From contig CAIOMN010000058.1 of assembly GCA_903859415.1 (NCBI GenBank), positions 62,001-126,000 of the forward strand: a stretch of DNA of 64,000 nucleotides, in the 5' to 3' direction. The DNA comes from an uncultured Methylococcaceae bacterium (GTDB lineage Bacteria; Pseudomonadota; Gammaproteobacteria; Methylococcales; Methylomonadaceae). Shown piece after piece: positions 3,435-51,288 of the stretch. A model generated the notes under the pieces. The model was not told the origin of the DNA. It was given only the letters and a program-made list of their open reading frames with translations, and did not search any database. Within the stretch, counting starts at the first letter, position 1, and every line of letters starts with the position of its first letter. A program made the translations under genes and the position numbers.

Positions 3435-3698
3435 TGATAATTGATTTAGCTATTGATAGCTGTTTCTGAAAGATTCAAATTGATCGCACTGTTTATGCTA
3501 GAGCGAGGTGGTTGAAAGTATGTCGTATGTGCTAAACAATACCAGAAATATTCTTATTTAAATATTTTAATCGAATGTACTCAATGTCACCGATTAGATT
3601 TGTAACAGTATGTAACAAATACTGAATTTGTTACATACTGTTACAAAAATGTCGGAGTCAGGCAATCTAAAGCAATGACTGTCAAATAGCTAGACTCA
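3435..3698. other. Intergenic region upstream of the sensor gene
   Basis: No coding frame is convincing here. The stretch holds the TGTWACA inverted repeat (3599-3647) and an AT-rich segment around 3550-3580. It lies between the stop of the unknown gene at 3699 and the sensor start at 3434, so the sensor promoter is probably inside it. Confidence 0.4.
3599..3647. promoter_or_regulatory. Perfect 22-bp inverted repeat built from four TGTWACA motifs (possible operator or terminator)
   Basis: Arms 3599-3620 and 3626-3647 are perfectly complementary around a 5-base loop. Each arm holds two copies of TGTAACA 10 bp apart (starts 3601 and 3611; inverted copies at 3629 and 3639). The one-turn spacing suggests an operator for a dimeric regulator. 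A hairpin after the gene at 3699-4388, or control of the sensor gene starting at 3434, are both possible. The stem is AT-rich and has no long U tract. Confidence 0.5.
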
Positions 3699-4388
3699 TC
3701 ACCCGCCCACTGACATACTCATCACGTCACTCCATTGCCCAACCTGTTCATCATGTAATAAATAGATGGCTTTATATTGCCACGTTTGACTTTTGCCAGG
3801 TACTGGAAGTGGCCATTTATCCATCGTGTTGGGTTCGGTATTGATGGTTAAAAAGCCAAAATTATTGCCATCACCCCGATCCACCCAAATTTCTATCGCA
3901 GCTGCATTACCTTTGGTCCAGACAATAATCGGATGACCGGCTTGATTCTGGGTACTTAAAATAGGTTTCCAGGCGCTAGGATCAATAACATGTGCTGACC
4001 CGATTAACCATAAATCTTTACCAATGGCATCGGTGTAGTTTTTATTCGCTTTAATCAGCCCGACCATCGCTGATAAGCGGGGTACAATACCCGGGTTAAC
4101 CGCAGAGGGAATGGGTTGAGCCAACGCGGGTGGCACCGGCCAGCCCGCTGCGCCACTGGTGCCATCACGGAGTTGATTTTTATAGTTCGTCCAGCTTTGA
4201 GAGTAGGCTTGCATATCGCTGGTACTCTGAAGGGCATAACGGAAACTGGCGCTATCGGCATTCAGTAAATTCAAATCGTCAGCAGTCATATTAAGCAAGG
4301 TGGCATACTGCGGTAAGGCAGTGCTCAGATGATTAAGCAAGTCAGCTTTACCGCTATCGGTACTCGGCATAAATGTAATTGTGCTCAT
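3699..4388 (-). CDS. Hypothetical protein, 229 aa
   Basis: I do not recognise this protein. The N-terminal half is helical and polar (TADDLNLLNADSASFRYALQ). It is followed by a Pro/Ala linker (about residues 83-100, VPPALAQPIPSAVNPG), a helical stretch, then a beta-rich C-terminus (IIVWTKGNAAAIEIWVDRGD, WQYKAIYLLHDEQVGQWSDV) that looks like an Ig/fibronectin-III-type strand pattern. No signal peptide or membrane segment is visible, so it is probably cytoplasmic or exported by another route. It stands alone, with an inverted repeat downstream and the unusual AGCGCT-phased region upstream of its start. The C-terminal pattern would fit a binding module, but I give no function. Confidence 0.65.
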   Translation of the reverse strand: MSTITFMPSTDSGKADLLNHLSTALPQYATLLNMTADDLNLLNADSASFRYALQSTSDMQAYSQSWTNYKNQLRDGTSGAAGWPVPPALAQPIPSAVNPGIVPRLSAMVGLIKANKNYTDAIGKDLWLIGSAHVIDPSAWKPILSTQNQAGHPIIVWTKGNAAAIEIWVDRGDGNNFGFLTINTEPNTMDKWPLPVPGKSQTWQYKAIYLLHDEQVGQWSDVMSMSVGG

Positions 4389-4442
4389 ACTGGTTTGGTT
4401 CCTTTCTAATGATCAATTTAAGAGGTGATGCAGAACTGACTC

Positions 4443-4993
4443 AACACTCTGCAAGGGTTTTTTAGCGTCCTGCTGTTATTAAAATGCATCTAGCCGAAAC
4501 GATGAATCACTGGCCCACGCTATAACTCAGTTTGAACAAGCTTTTTGAGAGCTAGAAAGTCATGGAGCTATAAAAATGATGACTTTTGACCAATATAATA
4601 GATACTTTGGAGTACTAACGCGTTATGGCGAAGTACTGCAAAAGACCGATGGATAGGTAGAAAAGGTTGGGCTAGCGCTAGCCGAAGTGATTTGAGCGCT
4701 AGCCCACCCTGTTTTAGTGCTGGAATACTACTGGATAGCGCTAGGTTGTCATAAAAGTAGAAATTTTTGTGATTATCTAGCGGTTAAATAGCCTGTTCAA
4801 GCACTCTAAACTGTTTCCTCAGTGGCGAGTAAGGCCGATTGCTGTACTGTTTGACCCCTTCAGAGACTAGCCAGCATACGCTTAGCGCTCGGTCAGGTTG
4901 CGCCAGCGCTCGGCAGGCTACTGCTAGCGCTAAGCTATGAGGGTTTAAACTAATTTATGATTGCTGATCGCTAGCGAGTGTTGAGCGAGCGCT
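4443..4993. repeat. 21-bp-phased AGCGCT hexamer array
   Basis: Seven exact AGCGCT palindromes start at 4674, 4695, 4737, 4884, 4905, 4926 and 4988. The first six are separated by exact multiples of 21 bp (21, 42, 147, 21, 21). Intermediate phase positions often carry one- or two-mismatch versions: AGTACT at 4611 and 4632, AGTGCT at 4716, AGCGGT at 4779, AGCACT at 4800, AGAGCT at 4548, and ATCGCT at 4967 (one base out of phase, but 21 bp before 4988). The 15 bases between hexamers are not conserved. All reading frames I checked contain stops. The array lies between the res gene and the unknown gene 3699-4388. Confidence 0.7.
4668..4706. repeat. 12-bp perfect inverted repeat inside the AGCGCT array
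   Basis: The arms TGGGCTAGCGCT (4668-4679) and AGCGCTAGCCCA (4695-4706) are perfectly complementary around a 15-base loop. They include the first two phased hexamers. It could form a stable hairpin. Confidence 0.6.
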
Positions 4994-5195
4994 GCTTAAC
5001 AGTAAAAAATCAGTTGACTCATTGAGGTTGGTGCTAACTCAGGAGGCTTGACTAGAACTATAAACCTATTTACACAAACCGCAAGATAAATACTGTATTT
5101 ATTTAATAGCTCTGCCAAGCTGTTTTCATGTCTTTGAATTTATGGAATTTAAAGAAGACTTTCATTTAGGATTTGAATCGCTTAAAAAGATTCAT

Positions 5196-7889
5196 TTACA
5201 TCAGTTTTAGCTTGTTTATCGCATCTGCTAAGCGCTCTGCGCCGTATATGGGATTATTATCAAATACCATCATATACTTAAATTTAGCACCGGCCTTGGA
5301 CTCCCAAAGTTTACCCAGCTGAAGTTTTAGCTCTGAATCAGAGTTATCCCTATCATCGCCTTTAGTTTCTATAATAATGATTTTGCCACTCTCGGTTTTG
5401 ACAATAAAATCAGGATAATGGTTGATAAAGCCATTAATCCTAAAACCTTTGCCTTTGGAAAGATTTCTGTGCCACCAGATAATATTTTCAAGATTAGCAA
5501 ACTCATTAATCACTCTGGCCTCAAAAATCCCCATTGAGGCTTCAGTACTATAAAGACTCTTAGGTATATCCGGTGCGTTGGCGGAGGGTGTAATGATTTC
5601 CGGCAAAGTAAAATGTGGTTGAATGCCGATAGTATCAACATCAAGAAAATCAATAAACGTTTTCTGAGCATGGATACCCGATAGAGTGTTGATTTTTTGT
5701 TTTATTTTCCTGACATAGTAAATGTCCCGTTCCAGTGCATCGTGTATCTGGTTGTCACTAAACGAGTCGGTAATTCGACTGATGTAACTTTTTATTTCCG
5801 GTTCAGAAATTGGATACATATTACCAATGAGCATGGTTAGTCGGGCATTTAAGTTCATCAACCGACTCTCCCGATCACCTTTTAAAATGATCTGGTTGTA
5901 TTTCTTTCGTTCCTCTGGCTTGGCTTTAAAGGGTGTGATTTTATATTCGCCTTCATCCACATATTCAAGGTCAAGTCGATATAATTCGGTTTCAACATCT
6001 TCAAAGTTGATAGTGGCATCTGCCTTGCCGAGATTAAATGCTTTTAATAATAAATCCTTCTCAAACAGTTGAGTGGTTTCGTCTTCAATCCAGCCTTGGG
6101 GTTCGACATGAATAAAAAACTGAGGTATTTTCAATGCTAAGGCATCGTCTCTAAAATTACCTTTAAGCTTATGTTTGTTCATTTTATCTTCCAGCTCAAT
6201 CGGAATATCAACATTCAATGCCTCTCGGGCTTGTTCTTCGTAGGTCTTCGTGGCAATAATGGCTTGCCTAGTTAATTCGTCAATCGCTATTTCACTGGTG
6301 GTTCGATTATCATTCTGGGTGTTATTTTCAGCATTGACGACTGCATTGATTATTGCTGGATTAATCACAAGCTCAGTTACATCGTAACTCGCTTGATTTT
6401 CAACGGAGTTATTTTCGTTAATCTGGTTTGGTAAGGCTATCGGTGGATTTTCTTGCTCATCACCGTTGTCTATTGTGAATAGATCATTGGTCTCAGGCGA
6501 ATGATTATCTTCTGTGATGATATGTGTAGTGACGCGATAATCTTTGTCAGAAAACCCGGCCCGATTAAGGCCCTTAACAATATTTTGCAAAGTTGCACTA
6601 AACAATGCGGAGGCCGTAAAGACATAACTGGTATTTAACAACTCATGACCGTGTTGTTGAACATGGGGCATACGCAGTATTCGACCCAGAATTTGTTCGA
6701 CATCAACTGCAGAGGACTTATCAGCGAGGGAGGCCAGAATATAAGCAAATGGACAATCCCAACCTTCTTTAAGTGCATTGATCGTAATGATGTAGCGTAC
6801 CGGACAATCGCGGCTCATTAGATCCAGGCCTTTTAGCTCATTGATGTCCGCTGTTTTGATTTTAATCTGTGCTTCTGGAATACCGGAATTAATTAACTGC
6901 TCTTTGGTTTTCTCAAAGGTAGTCTTGTCTTCACCGGAACGGGGTTGAGCCTGAAATAACACGATAGGGCGAATGTATTTTCCACCAGCCGCCTCCTCTT
7001 TAATGGCGATATCTTCCAGTCGTTTACGCATTAAGATAGCGCTTTCAATGGCTTCATTACGACTGGGCTGGTTTGAAACAATCACTGGCAGTTTAACCAT
7101 GTGCTGTTTTTTAAGTGCCATCGCATCGACATAGCTGATGATGTTACTGTTATTTCTGGGGGTTGCGGTTAGATCAAAAATAAAATGCGGATTGAGATTA
7201 ACCAGCATTTCTACCGAAAGCTCAGTTTCGGCATTATGACTTTCATCAACAATGACAATCGGCTCCAGTCCACGAATCACGTTGATTAACGCTGTCGGGT
7301 CGTAGCCAGGTAATAAGACGGCCTGTTCTTCCGTCTCATTGATGGCAAAAGAAGCGAGATACGCATTGTCCTGAAAGATTTTACGGTCTTCTTTGTTCTT
7401 GGCTTTTAGGCTACCAAAGCTCATCACAATAATAGACAGTTGCTCACTGACCGTATCAGCCGAAAATCCAGCACCCATGAGTAGATCACGTTTTTCAAAT
7501 ACCGCCACACGATTACTGAAAAGCTGGTTAAGCCTTCGACGGTAGGGGTGTTCTGGATTGTCTAAATTACGAACGGTTTGTTCAAGAATGGACAGGGACG
7601 GCACTAACCAAACGACCAATTTACTCCGTTCTGGATGATGAACGGCGAGTGCGTCAAAAATGGCTTTAATGGCATTCACTGCAATAAAGGTTTTACCGCC
7701 CGCTGTGGGTACTTTGGCGCAGACATGGGGGATACCGGGTACATTATTTTTATAAGGTGCAATGCCTGTTACACCTTTTTCATGCCAGTAAGCTTTAAAA
7801 GCAGTGCCTGGGCTGGTATGAATAACCAGTTCCGCTAAATACTCATCCAAATTATCAATGACGCGCTGTTGGTAATCTTTTAATTCCAT
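5196..7889 (-). CDS. Type III restriction endonuclease, Res subunit
   Basis: The protein (897 aa) is the ATP-dependent translocase and nuclease subunit of a type III restriction-modification system. It acts with Mod on unmethylated foreign DNA. Superfamily 2 helicase motifs are in order: Walker A PTAGGKTF (about residue 63), Walker B VDESHNAE (about 210), motif III LTATPRN (about 240) and a C-terminal helicase half (NALKEGWDCPF, QILGRILRMP about 400). The C-terminus has a PD-(D/E)XK nuclease pattern: YPDFIVKTESG followed by IIIETKG. Length and motifs look complete. It is co-directional with mod (8302-9909), but an antitoxin-like gene and a REP-like palindrome separate the two. The order mod then res is usual for the family. 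Confidence 0.93.
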   Translation of the reverse strand: MELKDYQQRVIDNLDEYLAELVIHTSPGTAFKAYWHEKGVTGIAPYKNNVPGIPHVCAKVPTAGGKTFIAVNAIKAIFDALAVHHPERSKLVVWLVPSLSILEQTVRNLDNPEHPYRRRLNQLFSNRVAVFEKRDLLMGAGFSADTVSEQLSIIVMSFGSLKAKNKEDRKIFQDNAYLASFAINETEEQAVLLPGYDPTALINVIRGLEPIVIVDESHNAETELSVEMLVNLNPHFIFDLTATPRNNSNIISYVDAMALKKQHMVKLPVIVSNQPSRNEAIESAILMRKRLEDIAIKEEAAGGKYIRPIVLFQAQPRSGEDKTTFEKTKEQLINSGIPEAQIKIKTADINELKGLDLMSRDCPVRYIITINALKEGWDCPFAYILASLADKSSAVDVEQILGRILRMPHVQQHGHELLNTSYVFTASALFSATLQNIVKGLNRAGFSDKDYRVTTHIITEDNHSPETNDLFTIDNGDEQENPPIALPNQINENNSVENQASYDVTELVINPAIINAVVNAENNTQNDNRTTSEIAIDELTRQAIIATKTYEEQAREALNVDIPIELEDKMNKHKLKGNFRDDALALKIPQFFIHVEPQGWIEDETTQLFEKDLLLKAFNLGKADATINFEDVETELYRLDLEYVDEGEYKITPFKAKPEERKKYNQIILKGDRESRLMNLNARLTMLIGNMYPISEPEIKSYISRITDSFSDNQIHDALERDIYYVRKIKQKINTLSGIHAQKTFIDFLDVDTIGIQPHFTLPEIITPSANAPDIPKSLYSTEASMGIFEARVINEFANLENIIWWHRNLSKGKGFRINGFINHYPDFIVKTESGKIIIIETKGDDRDNSDSELKLQLGKLWESKAGAKFKYMMVFDNNPIYGAERLADAINKLKLM

Positions 7890-7921
7890 ATTGAGACTTT
7901 TTAGTTAATGACAAACAATAA

Positions 7922-8002
7922 GTAGCCTCGATGAAACGCAGTGGAATCGAGGATGTCGGAGTGCTGTAAATCCTCGATTCCGCTTTGCTACATCGAGGCT
8001 AC
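7922..8002. repeat. REP/BIME-like imperfect palindrome
   Basis: The arms 7922-7954 (GTAGCCTCGATGAAACGCAG...) and 7970-8002 (...CATCGAGGCTAC) pair over about 33 bases with a few mismatches and a 15-base loop. The motif resembles the dispersed GTAGCC-GGATG-AGCGCAG family of extragenic palindromes found in many proteobacteria (from memory). It sits between the antitoxin-like gene and res. Confidence 0.7.
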
Positions 8003-8055
8003 GGACTGGCTTTAGTCCACGGCGCTCTAGGCCAGATACAGTTTTAACGTGGTGA

Positions 8056-8283
8056 CTAAATACATTCCTTATCCTCTTCATTACGCAATGTTTTGTAATC
8101 GTAGTCTTCACTAATGCCGCCTGCACCATAAAGTTCTAGCAGTCTTGATATTTTATGTGATTCTTTATGATGGTTAATAAACTCGTGCAATGCCAGTTCG
8201 ATGACTTGGCTTTGATTGTCGATATTAGCTAACTTGGCGGCTTGTTCAAGCAGGCTGTCATCAATGGTAATGGTGGTTTGCAT
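8056..8283 (-). CDS. VapB-like antitoxin, orphan
   Basis: The 75-residue protein starts with MQTTITIDDSLLEQAAKLANI, a ribbon-helix-helix DNA-binding pattern of the VapB/DUF2191 class. A polar tail (YGAGGISEDYDYKTLRNEED) in such proteins embraces a PIN toxin. No toxin gene adjoins it: downstream (7905-8055) there is only the REP-like palindrome. It lies between mod and res in the same direction, 18 bases after the mod stop (8302). It may be a leftover of a lost toxin-antitoxin pair or a regulator of the restriction genes. The latter is speculation. Confidence 0.75.
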   Translation of the reverse strand: MQTTITIDDSLLEQAAKLANIDNQSQVIELALHEFINHHKESHKISRLLELYGAGGISEDYDYKTLRNEEDKECI

Positions 8284-8301
8284 GGTGTCTGTGCTCCTAA
8301 A

Positions 8302-9909
8302 TTAAAAGCGGGTAATATCGCGGGGTATTTTCTTAAAGATAATACCGTATTGAGTCATGAACTCTTTAGTTAACAGGCATTTGTCGGCATAGATGATAGC
8401 TGTGCCGGGCTTGGCTGCACCAAACTTTAAGGTGTTTAAAAAGTCCAGATCAAGACAGGTTACTTCATTGGGTTCGTAGTAGAATAACCAGGCTGTATCG
8501 CTATTGAGGCCCATCAAATAAGGCGTGTAGGTATTATCTTGCGGTGTTTGGTCTGCATTTGGAATGCCTTCACTATAAGCCACATAATGACGGATGACTT
8601 CAATACCGACTGCTTCGTTTAGGGTATCGTCAGGGTTAAAAATTGCTTCGCCGATGGTGTAATAATCAAAGCTACCACCGAGCCCAGCGACTTTTTTAGT
8701 GCCTTCACCGTAGCCGGATATGACGCGGCGTACACGTTCGGCGGTGATGGTATCGGCGTAGTCTTCCATTTCAACCAGGATAAAGCGGCGATTGCCACCG
8801 TCTTGGGCATTTAGATCAAGGGTTGCATGAGCAGTTGTGCCACTGCCTGCGAAAGAGTCCAGTATAATGGCTTGTTTATCAGTGGCGATTTGTAAAATAC
8901 GTTTAATTAAACTAGGCGGCTTAGGTGTCTCAAAAGGTGTCTTAGATTCAGGAAAAATTCTTTTTAAGATTTGTTTAGAATCTTGATTGTTTCCTACTTC
9001 AGTATGCTTCCATATTGTTAATGGAACTATACCTTCTTGGACATCGGTCAAAAATCTTTTGAGCCTAGGAACTCCATCTCCTTTTTGACCAAACCAAATC
9101 CTATTATCTTGTACAAGTACATTAAAATTCTCCTCGGATGTCGCCCAGCATCTACCATCTGTAGGACTAACTTTTCTTCCTGAAGGCGTTATGATTTCAT
9201 AATCATAATCTTTAGAATAAGTTTTAACAGTAAAATTATCTGATGCCCATACGCCCCTTGAGTCTTTATCTATATTTTTATACCTATCGTTTTGTATTTC
9301 AGTTCTTGGTAAAAAGTTTCTATTCCATAAAGTTTTATTTTTAGCATAAGTCACTATGAAATCATGATTATCTGAAAAATACTTTGCGTCATTTTGAGGG
9401 TTAAACTTTTTTTCCCAAATAACATTATTGATAAAATTCGCACCACCAAAAATCTCATCACAAATTAACTTTAAATTGGCCTGTTCATTATCATCAATAG
9501 ATATAAAAATAACCCCATCTTTAGCCAACAAACGATGCAACAACTTCAGCCGTGGATACATCATGCACAACCATTTGTCATGACGTGATAAATCCTCACC
9601 CTCTTTGCCAACCACCTGGCCTAGCCACTTCTTGATTTTAGGATCATTGACAGCATCGTTATAAGCCCAGCCCTCATTGCCGGTGTTATAAGGGGGATCA
9701 ATATAAATACAATTAACTTTACCCTCAAACTCAGGTAACAGGCTTTTTAATGCTTCCAGGTTGTCGCCATGAATAATCCGGTTGCCTGTACTATTAATCG
9801 GTGAACCCTCCGGCGCATCAAAATGACTTTCATGGCGTAATACTTTAAACGGTACGTCATGATGATGGTTGACCACCTTGTCTTTCCCGACCCAGGTAAG
9901 TGTTGGCAT
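8302..9909 (-). CDS. Type III site-specific DNA-methyltransferase, Mod subunit
   Basis: The protein (535 aa) is the modification and specificity subunit of the type III system: it methylates adenine N6 in the recognition site and directs Res. Catalytic motif IV reads YIDPPYNTG (about residue 90) and the SAM-binding motif I FAGSGTT (about 355). Motif IV precedes motif I, so this is the beta-class order. The part between them (about residues 165-320, bases about 8950-9420) is the target recognition region. It is visibly more AT-rich than the flanks, as expected for a variable, exchangeable domain. No frameshift-prone simple repeat is seen in the gene, so phase variation is not indicated. Start ATG at 9909 gives MPTLTWVGKDKVV. 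Confidence 0.93.
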   Translation of the reverse strand: MPTLTWVGKDKVVNHHHDVPFKVLRHESHFDAPEGSPINSTGNRIIHGDNLEALKSLLPEFEGKVNCIYIDPPYNTGNEGWAYNDAVNDPKIKKWLGQVVGKEGEDLSRHDKWLCMMYPRLKLLHRLLAKDGVIFISIDDNEQANLKLICDEIFGGANFINNVIWEKKFNPQNDAKYFSDNHDFIVTYAKNKTLWNRNFLPRTEIQNDRYKNIDKDSRGVWASDNFTVKTYSKDYDYEIITPSGRKVSPTDGRCWATSEENFNVLVQDNRIWFGQKGDGVPRLKRFLTDVQEGIVPLTIWKHTEVGNNQDSKQILKRIFPESKTPFETPKPPSLIKRILQIATDKQAIILDSFAGSGTTAHATLDLNAQDGGNRRFILVEMEDYADTITAERVRRVISGYGEGTKKVAGLGGSFDYYTIGEAIFNPDDTLNEAVGIEVIRHYVAYSEGIPNADQTPQDNTYTPYLMGLNSDTAWLFYYEPNEVTCLDLDFLNTLKFGAAKPGTAIIYADKCLLTKEFMTQYGIIFKKIPRDITRF

Positions 9910-26814: not shown

Positions 26815-27450
26815 TGATTACCTAGCAGGGGGCTAAAGGGGTAATTGTAACGGATTATTTGTTAATGAAAACTTAATATCATGAGAGGCTGTTGCTATTT
26901 TCTAATCAAAGTTGGGTGCATTTATGTAAACTACACTATAATCCCATCGTTTTTTGTCAATTGCCAAGTCCATGGAATGGGCTGTTATCGCAACCGATTG
27001 CAAATTTGGTCTGATCTCTTCGGAACTTATGCCACCCGATTCGCATTTGTTTAGACAAACATGGCCAAAGAAATGATTTAATTACGAAAAGGTCTCAATA
27101 GTTTCTTCCTATTAACGGATTTGTGTTGCAATTGTGTCGGGCAAGCATAGTTACTCTTCGCCTTCGCTTCGCAATCGGGAGCCCGATATTCCGATGTTTG
27201 TTCAAAGAGTTCGCATTTTTGATGAGAGGAATGGCAATCGAGAGCGGTCAATTGCCATTCTGGAGCGGTAAAATCCCCTGATTTTTAGCACTCTACGCTA
27301 GGCCGGGTTAAAACTCGGTGGTAATCTATGAACCATTTATGTTAGTTAGGTAAGACAGCATTATTGTAAAATCTTTGTCATATATGGAAATAGAAATAGT
27401 TTGCAATGTTACAATATTGATTGTTACCCTGGTTTTATATATAAAGCGTT
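26815..27450. other. Gene-free stretch upstream of moaA
   Basis: About 630 bases without a convincing coding frame. It holds a 10-bp inverted repeat (GAATGGCAAT at 27229-27238 with ATTGCCATTC at 27251-27260) and a short TCGGGAGCCCGA hairpin near 27176-27187. Scattered palindromic scraps suggest a degraded repeat or insertion-sequence remnant. I saw no clear molybdenum-cofactor riboswitch. The last 100 bases are AT-rich and probably carry the moaA promoter. Confidence 0.4.
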
Positions 27451-28458
27451 ATGACCCCATTACCTAGCCCAACTGCACTAATCGATCGTTTTGGTAGAAA
27501 GGTTGATTATTTAAGAATCTCTATCACGGATCGGTGTGATTTTCGCTGCGTCTACTGTATGGCAGAAGATATGACCTTTTTGCCTCGCTCACAGATCTTG
27601 ACGCTCGAAGAAATAGAGACATTGGCTGAAGCGTTTGTAGAATTGGGTGTCAAAAAAATTCGCGTAACGGGTGGAGAACCTTTAGTTAGAAAAGGCGCTT
27701 TAAACCTGCTTACAAATATCGGTAGAATTGAAGGCTTAAAAGAGCTGGTTATAACCACTAATGGTTCACAGCTAGTCAATATGGCCTCGCAGTTGAAAGA
27801 CTCCGGTGTCAAACGGATTAACATTAGTTTGGATACCCTGGATGCTGATAAGTTTAAAGCGATTACGCGTACCGGTGATCTGCACCAAGTATTAAGCGGT
27901 ATTCAGGCTGTTAAAGCGGCTGGGTTTGAGCATACTAAAATCAATGCTGTGATCCTGAAAGATAGAAATCATCTGGAAGTTAATGATTTAGTGCAATATG
28001 CGGTTGATAACGAAATTGATATTAGCTTTATTGAAGAAATGCCGCTGGGGATTGTGGGCCAACATGACCGCTCAGAAGCTTATTATTCGAGTGCTTTAAT
28101 TCAGGCTGATTTATCACAAAAGTTTTCATTAGTCCCTTCAGTTGAAAAAACCGGAGGTCCCTCTAATTACTTTAAAGTCTCTGGAACGCAAACGCGTGTG
28201 GGTTTTATTTCTCCACACAGTGATAATTTTTGCAGTACCTGTAATCGAGTACGATTAACCGTGGAAGGGCGATTATTATTATGTTTGGGAAATGAGCATT
28301 CAGTTGATTTAAAAGAAGTGCTAAGAGCTTATCCAGATGATAAAGATAAGCTTAAACAGACTATTATTGACGCTATGCTGATTAAGCCAGAAAAACACGA
28401 ATTTAATATTCATGAACAACCCGTGATATTGCGTTATATGAATATGACGGGTGGGTGA
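27451..28458 (+). CDS. moaA: MoaA, GTP 3',8-cyclase (molybdenum cofactor biosynthesis)
   Basis: The protein (335 aa) is a radical-SAM enzyme making the first step of molybdopterin synthesis from GTP. The N-terminal 4Fe-4S motif is RCDFRCVYCMAED (CxxxCxxC) and the second cluster site is FCSTCNRVRLTVEG plus LLLCLG. The C-terminus ends MNMTGG: the double glycine is required in MoaA for activity. No moaC, moaD or moaE is next to it. A moaA near a nir cluster might be confused with nirJ, but the second-cluster spacing and the C-terminal GG identify MoaA. A short GGTGGGT...ACCCACC hairpin (28450-28473) covers the stop codon. Confidence 0.95.
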   Translation: MTPLPSPTALIDRFGRKVDYLRISITDRCDFRCVYCMAEDMTFLPRSQILTLEEIETLAEAFVELGVKKIRVTGGEPLVRKGALNLLTNIGRIEGLKELVITTNGSQLVNMASQLKDSGVKRINISLDTLDADKFKAITRTGDLHQVLSGIQAVKAAGFEHTKINAVILKDRNHLEVNDLVQYAVDNEIDISFIEEMPLGIVGQHDRSEAYYSSALIQADLSQKFSLVPSVEKTGGPSNYFKVSGTQTRVGFISPHSDNFCSTCNRVRLTVEGRLLLCLGNEHSVDLKEVLRAYPDDKDKLKQTIIDAMLIKPEKHEFNIHEQPVILRYMNMTGG

Positions 28459-49242: not shown

Positions 49243-51288
49243 ATGTCTGAACAAGATAATCGTTTTGTATCGGTAACAACTCCTTTAGGTACTGATTACA
49301 TGCTATTTGCTAGTATGAGAGGAACAGAGGAGTTAAGCAGGTTATTTGAGTATGAACTGGATTTGTTAGTAGACAGTCAAAATATAAGTTCCATAGCTTC
49401 GGGTGGTTTTCCAATTGAAAGTGTACTCGGGGAAGCAATGACCGTTACCTTAGCTTTACCCTCAGGTGGCTCTCGGTATTTTCATGGTTTGGTCACCCAA
49501 CTTAGGCATGTTGGCTCAGAAGACGAGTTTTATTTATATCGTGCAGTTTTGCGACCCTGGTTATGGTTTTTAACCCGCACCAGTAATTGCCGTATTTTTC
49601 AGGATTTATCTGTTCCTGATATTATTAAAAAAATATTTTCATTAAATAACTTTAGTGATTTTGAAATGGATCTATCGAGTACTTATAAGACTCGTGAGTA
49701 TTGTGTTCAATACCGTGAAAGTGATTTTAATTTTGTTAGTCGATTAATGGAACATGAGGGTATTTTCTACTATTTTACCCATGAAAATTCAAAGCATTCT
49801 TTAGTGATTGCTGACAGTATAAATGCCTATCAAACCACTAATAGCAACGCTTCAATACCTTATTACCCACCTGAAAATACCGGACAAAGAGCTAAAGAAC
49901 ATATTTTTGGATGGCGAACCTCACATAGCGTAAAGTCCGGTACTTATGTTTTAAATGATTATGATTTTATAAATCCTAAAAGTAATCTTGTTACTAAATA
50001 CACTTCTGCCAATCAACATAGTAAGGCAGAAGGGGAGCATTATGATTACCCAGGGAGTTACATTGAATCGTCCGACGGCGAAGCCTATGCCAATATACGA
50101 TTGGATGAGTTAAAAACGGATTATGAAGTAATACAGGGTGAGGGAAATGCACGTAGTTTAACTACTGGGATGCTGTTTATTCTGGATGGTCATTACATTT
50201 CCTCTGAAAATGTTAAACATATTGTTGTCTCTTCTGAGATAAATGTTGTTTCAAATGAATATCGTACCAGTAAATCATCAGAAGGAACCAAGTTTGAATG
50301 TGCATTTAAAGCCATACGTGCTACCCAACAGTTTCGCCCAAAACGCTTAACTCCTGTGCCTTTTGTTCAGGGTCCACAAACTGCTACAGTGGTTGGTAAA
50401 GACGGTGAAGAAATATGGACTGATCAATACGGGCGTATTAAGGTTCAGTTTCATTGGGAAAGAGACGGTAAAAAGAACGAAACAAGTTCTTGCTGGATGC
50501 GTGTTGCTTTTCCTGTGGCTGGCAAGGGTTGGGGATGGGTTTCTTTACCACGTATTGGACAAGAAGTGGTCATTAGCTTTTTGGAAGGTAATCCAGATAA
50601 GCCGCTGATTACGGGGTGTGTCTACAACGGTGATAATCCGCCTCCTTATGAGTTACCGACCAATCAAACACAAAGTGGTATAAAAAGTCGCAGTTCAAAA
50701 ACCGGTACTGGTGAAAATTTTAACGAAATTCGTTTCGAAGACAAAAAGGATTCTGAAGAGGTTTATGTGCATGCCGAAAAAGATTTTAACTGCATCATTG
50801 AAAATAACGAAACCCGACAAATTGGGGTCGTTAAAAAGGATAAAGGTGACCAGACCATTGAAATTCAAAATGATAGAACAATCACTTTAAATCAGGGTAA
50901 TGATACTCTGCATGTTAAAAATGGTAATCGAGAATCTAATATAGATGTTGGAAACCATACTTTAAATGTAAAACAGGGTAATCATTTAGAAAATGTTGAT
51001 CAAGGAAATGCTACCTTAAACGTTAAGCTAGGCAATAACAACATTAATGTTTCAGTGGGAGATCACATTGTAAAAGTTGATGCTGGAAACGCGAAAGTCA
51101 CTGCAATGCAGTCTATTGAACTTAAAGTCGGTGGCAGCAGTATCAAAATGGACCCAGGGAGCATTACCATCAAAGCCCCCATGATTACGATTCAAGCTGA
51201 TGGTATGTTAGAGGCTAAAAGTCCAATGACGACTGTTAAAGGTGATGGAATTTTGATCTTAAAAGGCGGCATCACCCTTATTAACTAA
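49243..51288 (+). CDS. vgrG: VgrG, type VI secretion spike protein
   Basis: The protein (681 aa) forms the trimeric needle tip of the type VI secretion system. The N-terminal gp27-like half has GTEELSRLFEYELDLLV and FHGLVTQLRHVG. The OB-fold/gp5 segment includes GRIKVQFHWERDG, CWMRVAFPVAGKGWGW and GWVSLPRIGQEVVISFLEGNPD. The C-terminal beta-helix is built of short repeats around GNHTLNVKQGN and NATLNVKLGN. It ends GGITLIN with no extra effector domain. No other T6SS structural genes are in the window, so this is a dispersed vgrG cargo locus. Confidence 0.95.
   Translation: MSEQDNRFVSVTTPLGTDYMLFASMRGTEELSRLFEYELDLLVDSQNISSIASGGFPIESVLGEAMTVTLALPSGGSRYFHGLVTQLRHVGSEDEFYLYRAVLRPWLWFLTRTSNCRIFQDLSVPDIIKKIFSLNNFSDFEMDLSSTYKTREYCVQYRESDFNFVSRLMEHEGIFYYFTHENSKHSLVIADSINAYQTTNSNASIPYYPPENTGQRAKEHIFGWRTSHSVKSGTYVLNDYDFINPKSNLVTKYTSANQHSKAEGEHYDYPGSYIESSDGEAYANIRLDELKTDYEVIQGEGNARSLTTGMLFILDGHYISSENVKHIVVSSEINVVSNEYRTSKSSEGTKFECAFKAIRATQQFRPKRLTPVPFVQGPQTATVVGKDGEEIWTDQYGRIKVQFHWERDGKKNETSSCWMRVAFPVAGKGWGWVSLPRIGQEVVISFLEGNPDKPLITGCVYNGDNPPPYELPTNQTQSGIKSRSSKTGTGENFNEIRFEDKKDSEEVYVHAEKDFNCIIENNETRQIGVVKKDKGDQTIEIQNDRTITLNQGNDTLHVKNGNRESNIDVGNHTLNVKQGNHLENVDQGNATLNVKLGNNNINVSVGDHIVKVDAGNAKVTAMQSIELKVGGSSIKMDPGSITIKAPMITIQADGMLEAKSPMTTVKGDGILILKGGITLIN

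Follow-up and report, generated by a model that had tools for sequence, protein, structure and literature searches.

A 21-bp periodic array of non-coding DNA lies upstream of most examined genes of an unnamed protein family in Methylococcales and Bacteroidota

Direct repeats of about two helix turns, composed of dyad units and lying beside a gene, are found in iterons and phased operator arrays, among them parC, plasmid origins of replication and the sites of cooperative repressors. A different group of bacterial tandem repeats, constant in length (20-21 and 52 nt) and variable in sequence, was described by Subirana and Messeguer, who termed them enigmatic, noted the correspondence to two helix turns and proposed protein polymerisation or a small RNA (PMC8161180). 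These constant-length repeats of drifting sequence are a recognised puzzle without a function. By a term search, the same paper mentions neither upstream genes nor Bacteroidetes nor Methylo- species, and no published link between constant-length repeats and a gene family was found in the openly available literature; an earlier description elsewhere is possible. The initial annotation of the locus studied here knew of no described element with this pattern, a statement that was too broad as regards the repeat class.

The locus lies in a window of 64,000 nucleotides, the whole stretch of DNA that was analysed, in which the hexamer AGCGCT occurs seven times within a short gene-free interval, exactly where it had first been reported (4674, 4695, 4737, 4884, 4905, 4926 and 4988). 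The features of this interval are as follows.

4443..5062 (approximate extent), no strand: phased 21-bp array of about 29 strongly degenerate units with one -1 slip near 4947, drawn from a phase display and from how the lag-21 match fraction varies along 8 + 6 related copies
4674..4742, no strand: three in-phase AGCGCT sites (4674, 4695, 4737), with the near-match AGTGCT at 4716 and the palindrome GGCTAGCGCTAGCC
4884..4931, no strand: three in-phase AGCGCT sites (4884, 4905, 4926), where TRF gives period 21
4988..4993, no strand: seventh AGCGCT, one base off phase (62 after 4926)

Of the 17 AGCGCT sites in the 64 kb, 7 fall in this stretch, compared with an expected average of 0.54 and a maximum of 4 in first-order Markov sequence matched for composition. 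The exact 21-bp phase of the first six was confirmed, and in 15 of the 21 pairs of sites the two positions lie a multiple of 21 apart, a count never equalled in 100,000 random placements, for a hexamer that was picked after the sequence had been seen. Across the genome the pattern AGCGCT-N15-AGCGCT was counted at 14 places and its reversed control at 0; most of the 14 cluster in non-coding arrays of a similar kind, and the place on contig C174 is coding (KRFEQVD heptads). Paralogous small proteins with coding KRFEQVD repeats, a 21-bp DNA period and AGCGCT in places were also seen at L013 4096-4560 and L014 411-755. The spacers between the sites, first described as unrelated, are not so, several of them carrying GCCCAACCTGTT or its reverse complement. 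Autocorrelation of this stretch alone against shuffled sequence gave an excess at lag 21 (z = 3.2, 6/5000 shuffles), which fell to 67/1000 after correction for scanning lags 5-60, so that the window copy by itself is only moderately convincing. The repeat class has at least four units per array; TRF saw only 2.6 copies in the window array, which is too degenerate for it, and a simple tandem repeat detectable by that program was rejected for the window. The case for periodicity rests on the relatives of this array and not on the window copy alone.

A scan of window positions 4300-5300 for sigma-70 promoters and terminators gave no excess. At 4429-4463 a TGCAGA...TCTGCA inverted repeat is followed by a T-run, and it is kept at the gene-proximal end in several copies of the surrounding element. 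Two other lag-21 regions of the window were set aside, one at 50701 inside a VgrG-like gene and one at 26976-27626, which is intergenic, with raised lag-21 self-match and no clear units.

The relatives were found through the gene that adjoins the array, which belongs to a family referred to below as P.

3699..4388, minus strand: P-family gene, 229 aa, unnamed, with a predicted helical N-half and FN3-like C-half; the array lies directly 5' of it, its homologs lie downstream of similar arrays, and it is under purifying selection

Autocorrelation was run on the 750-800 bp upstream of each P start codon against first-order Markov sequences, with start codons set by alignment and many of the genomes being draft metagenome assemblies, sampled from two groups (the order Methylococcales and the phylum Bacteroidota). 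The 99 P upstream regions formed 50 blastn-independent clusters, and the strongest lag was 21, 42 or 63 in 41 of these 50, a result which, as the survey began from P genes, shows that P genes have arrays and not that arrays mostly have P. Among controls the top lag fell at 21 or a multiple in 7/120 regions upstream of neighbouring non-P genes, 5/50 downstream of P and 11/64 far upstream. The tie between the 21-bp array and the P gene is well supported, and the link first proposed with gene 3699-4388 was borne out by the recurrence of the period upstream of that gene's relatives. In some loci, such as L142 (about 17 units of GGCTGCTCCGTTGGGGTCCAC type) and L185 (many near-identical units, GGATTTCTTCACGTGAATCCC), the array is plain by eye, with many clear units where the window has 2.6 copies by TRF; in others, the window among them, it is discernible only by statistics. 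Little or no 21-bp signal was present at L179, L180, L181, L211, L245, L247 and partial genes.

The arrays share the period alone; every P gene has a unit sequence of its own, and this holds between P genes of the same genome as well. It is therefore unlikely that one factor reads AGCGCT throughout the species, and the hexamer is to be regarded as a local motif of the window copy, since the repeat changes from gene to gene. The related copies hold the 21-bp register but swap the hexamer, and in-phase hexamers differ among P genes inside a single genome; the conserved recognition site that the initial annotation had seen in AGCGCT thus found no support, and AGCGCT as a genome-wide recognition word was rejected.

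The proteins of the P family are about 200-235 aa long, and the substitutions that separate gene 3699-4388 from its counterpart in L115 (31/20/85 by codon position) indicate clear purifying selection. The structure predicted for the L136 relative (mean pLDDT 83.7, pTM 0.50) combines an N-half that is long and helical with a beta-sandwich at the C-terminus, the latter matching the FN3 fold in the PDB (3mpc, TMt 0.64) and viral FN3 proteins as well, so that the C-half of P is assigned, on this model, as a predicted FN3 beta-sandwich. No solved structure was convincing for P by sequence, no DNA-binding fold could be recognised in it, and the protein is slightly acidic (mean net charge -1.4 in the N-half and -3.0 in the C-half). 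A profile search placed P relatives at 24 loci in named assemblies of Methylococcaceae and Bacteroidetes, including Polaribacter; P is present in 38/201 genomes of the order, with up to 17 detected matches per genome, and, in the phylum to which the Polaribacter assembly belongs, in 6/396 genomes. Among genes neighbouring P, none is conserved besides P itself and no mobile-element gene recurs; since no other adjoining gene is conserved, array and P form a stand-alone unit. In the window, positions 3600-3646 hold a perfect inverted repeat with arms of 21 nt and a loop of 5 nt (TTGTAACAGTATGTAACAAAT / ATTTGTTACATACTGTTACAA), placed past the 3' end of gene 3699-4388 and before the gene that follows.

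The window array is itself part of a longer dispersed sequence.

4395..5176 (approximate), no strand: dispersed non-coding element with the 21-bp periodic array, about 720-780 bp; blastn copies at 71-78% identity, with a core of ~650 bp at ~70% identity

Three further contigs of the same genome carry copies, C107 and C187 (each at 71-72% identity) as well as C154, and copies also occur in 5 of 34 other genomes of the genus, with eleven matches in one genome. At eleven loci the element lies directly upstream of homologs of gene 3699-4388 (65-80% identity), and elsewhere it stands alone. Among full copies the core is 646-653 bp long at ~70% identity, with indels that are almost all of a single base; the window and copy L108 differ by only one large indel, exactly two units (42 bp) that L108 lacks. 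The element is less conserved than the gene. All six frames contain stops in all copies, with 8-27 per frame in those of full length, and substitutions between copies are spread evenly over the three phases, which agrees with the non-coding status originally assigned. In related copies the lag-21 excess covers most of 4389-5100, and the array therefore does not end where it was first taken to end. Neither a lack of 21-bp excess in orthologous regions nor an old coding gene was found.

At the orphan copies (L013, L015, L106, L107 and L109) no P homolog was found within the fetched flanks. A sequence of ~75 bp beside one orphan array (L015 2300-2377; contigs C103, C104 and C187) has at least six further copies in the genome. 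The region adjoining the window array, 5196-9909, encodes a Type III restriction subunit, a VapB-type antitoxin and an N6/N4 DNA methylase, and a VapBC-like pair is also near the orphan array of L015. Phage, plasmid and viral-contig collections searched for an origin gave no matches.

Averaged over 77 upstream regions, the spectrum rises to peaks at 21, 42, 63 and 84 alone, with nothing at 3 or 7. Between these peaks the best-fitting period is 10.5 bp (cosine r = 0.74), one of few options available since a 21-bp-periodic sequence can hold only harmonics of 21; regions downstream of P and far upstream of it lack this component. The unit also has an elevated second harmonic (t = 5.6), above all in purine/pyrimidine, with no rise at 7 or 3. 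Both the period and its 10.5-bp component support the two turns of the helix per unit that were first suggested. In dyad symmetry the consensus units exceed their column-shuffled counterparts (30/43 at p < 0.05). Because the array is non-coding, peaks at multiples of 21, carries the 10.5-bp component, is built of dyad units and has no strand preference, a DNA-level array acting in cis on one helix face is favoured, and these observations favour, without proving, DNA rather than RNA as the working molecule.

The best-supported explanation is that of a cis-acting, helically phased DNA array serving the P gene. The feature in the window would belong to a stand-alone unit of two parts, in which it forms the upstream half, the non-coding 21-bp array, and a P-family gene follows. 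The array may work as DNA that offers a site at every second turn, on a single helix face, to a cooperatively binding protein, either an oligomerising regulator or P itself, and the resulting nucleoprotein array would control P transcription. Selection would act on register and symmetry while base sequence drifts, and each P gene would therefore acquire its own unit sequence, AGCGCT being the unit core of this copy. We infer the protein binding, the control of transcription and any participation of P, and we give this reading, drawn from sequence comparison, about an even chance of being right. P as the binder is doubtful because it is slightly acidic and lacks a recognisable DNA-binding fold, and the arrays that occur alone without P count against an array that serves P. 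Also against this reading, within-unit covariation was nil when the centre was chosen blind, a first positive test for compensatory change having used a centre picked from the same data.

The array might instead act as RNA, whether in a long leader 5' of P or in a separate transcript, with repeated hairpins of ~21 nt that bind protein or control translation. In several loci it stops ~12-90 bp before the start codon, which leaves little room for a promoter, and in B. coagulans repeats of 52 nt are known to be transcribed (PMC8625621). Arrays are self-complementary beyond column-order shuffles, but equally so on the two strands (z of -2.5 on one and -2.6 on the other, with the sense strand lower in 19/43), so that G-U pairs leave no strand signal; G-T versus A-C mismatches likewise had no clear skew, and per-copy RNA fold z-scores were uneven. 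No Rfam family matched the window array, and among 12 other loci the only two matches were group II introns, at L013 3887-3956 (outside the array) and L136 58-140 (the far edge of the upstream region). With a secondary period at the B-DNA value of 10.5, we consider an RNA role unlikely, though not negligible.

A by-product without regulatory function, such as a satellite kept by slippage or a platform for recombination or mobility that spreads the P unit, would fit the multi-copy, scattered P units with their unrelated neighbours, the orphan arrays and the near-identical units of arrays like that of L185. Neutral slippage, however, fails to explain one exact period across two phyla and leaves unexplained both the nearly indel-free core length at ~70% identity and an indel of exactly two units, and no mobile-element gene is conserved alongside. 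This explanation is improbable compared with the phased DNA array. We place far lower a centromere- or partition-like site of the ParR/parC or ParB/parS kind with P as its partner, a very unlikely arrangement: phased dyad sites beside one gene do resemble parC-type iterons, but no ATPase (ParA/ParM-type), Rep or filament-forming neighbour is conserved, copies per genome are many, the plasmid and phage collections searched lack it, and P is acidic. A decayed gene for seven-residue repeats, suggested by 21 bp being seven codons and by AGCGCT-containing coding heptads elsewhere in the genome (L014), is hardly credible and was excluded by the stops in every frame, flat substitution phase, single-base indels and missing 3- and 7-bp signals.

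We therefore return to the phased DNA array, and tentatively, at somewhat under an even chance, propose a genetic unit not described before, widespread among Methylococcales and occurring also in Bacteroidota, in which a locus-specific dyad array, held in step with two turns of DNA, would be joined to a single FN3-tailed protein controlled by, or assembling on, its own array. In the fold of its C-half P resembles FN3-domain proteins (PDB 3mpc; phage tail proteins), and its helical N-half has no convincing structural match; the multi-copy family is missing from Pfam, NCBIfam and PHROGs (the last queried with Methylococcales members only), which marks it as worth study. The P arrays are like iterons in being direct repeats of about two helix turns, with dyad units and an adjacent gene, and unlike them in having no conserved Rep or partition gene nearby, in being multi-copy and in differing in unit sequence at each locus. 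With the repeats of PMC8161180 they share the traits of the class, a constant length of 20-21 nt, sequence that varies between arrays, non-coding status and several families per genome. Unlike those repeats, P arrays are often too degenerate for tandem-repeat finders, and where such programs fail they can be recognised from period alone; they are also tied to one protein family, on its 5' side. A 21-bp period consistently 5' of one family in two phyla opens the puzzle to direct experiment, and the two-part unit, if true, would give the enigmatic constant-length repeats their first genetic partner.
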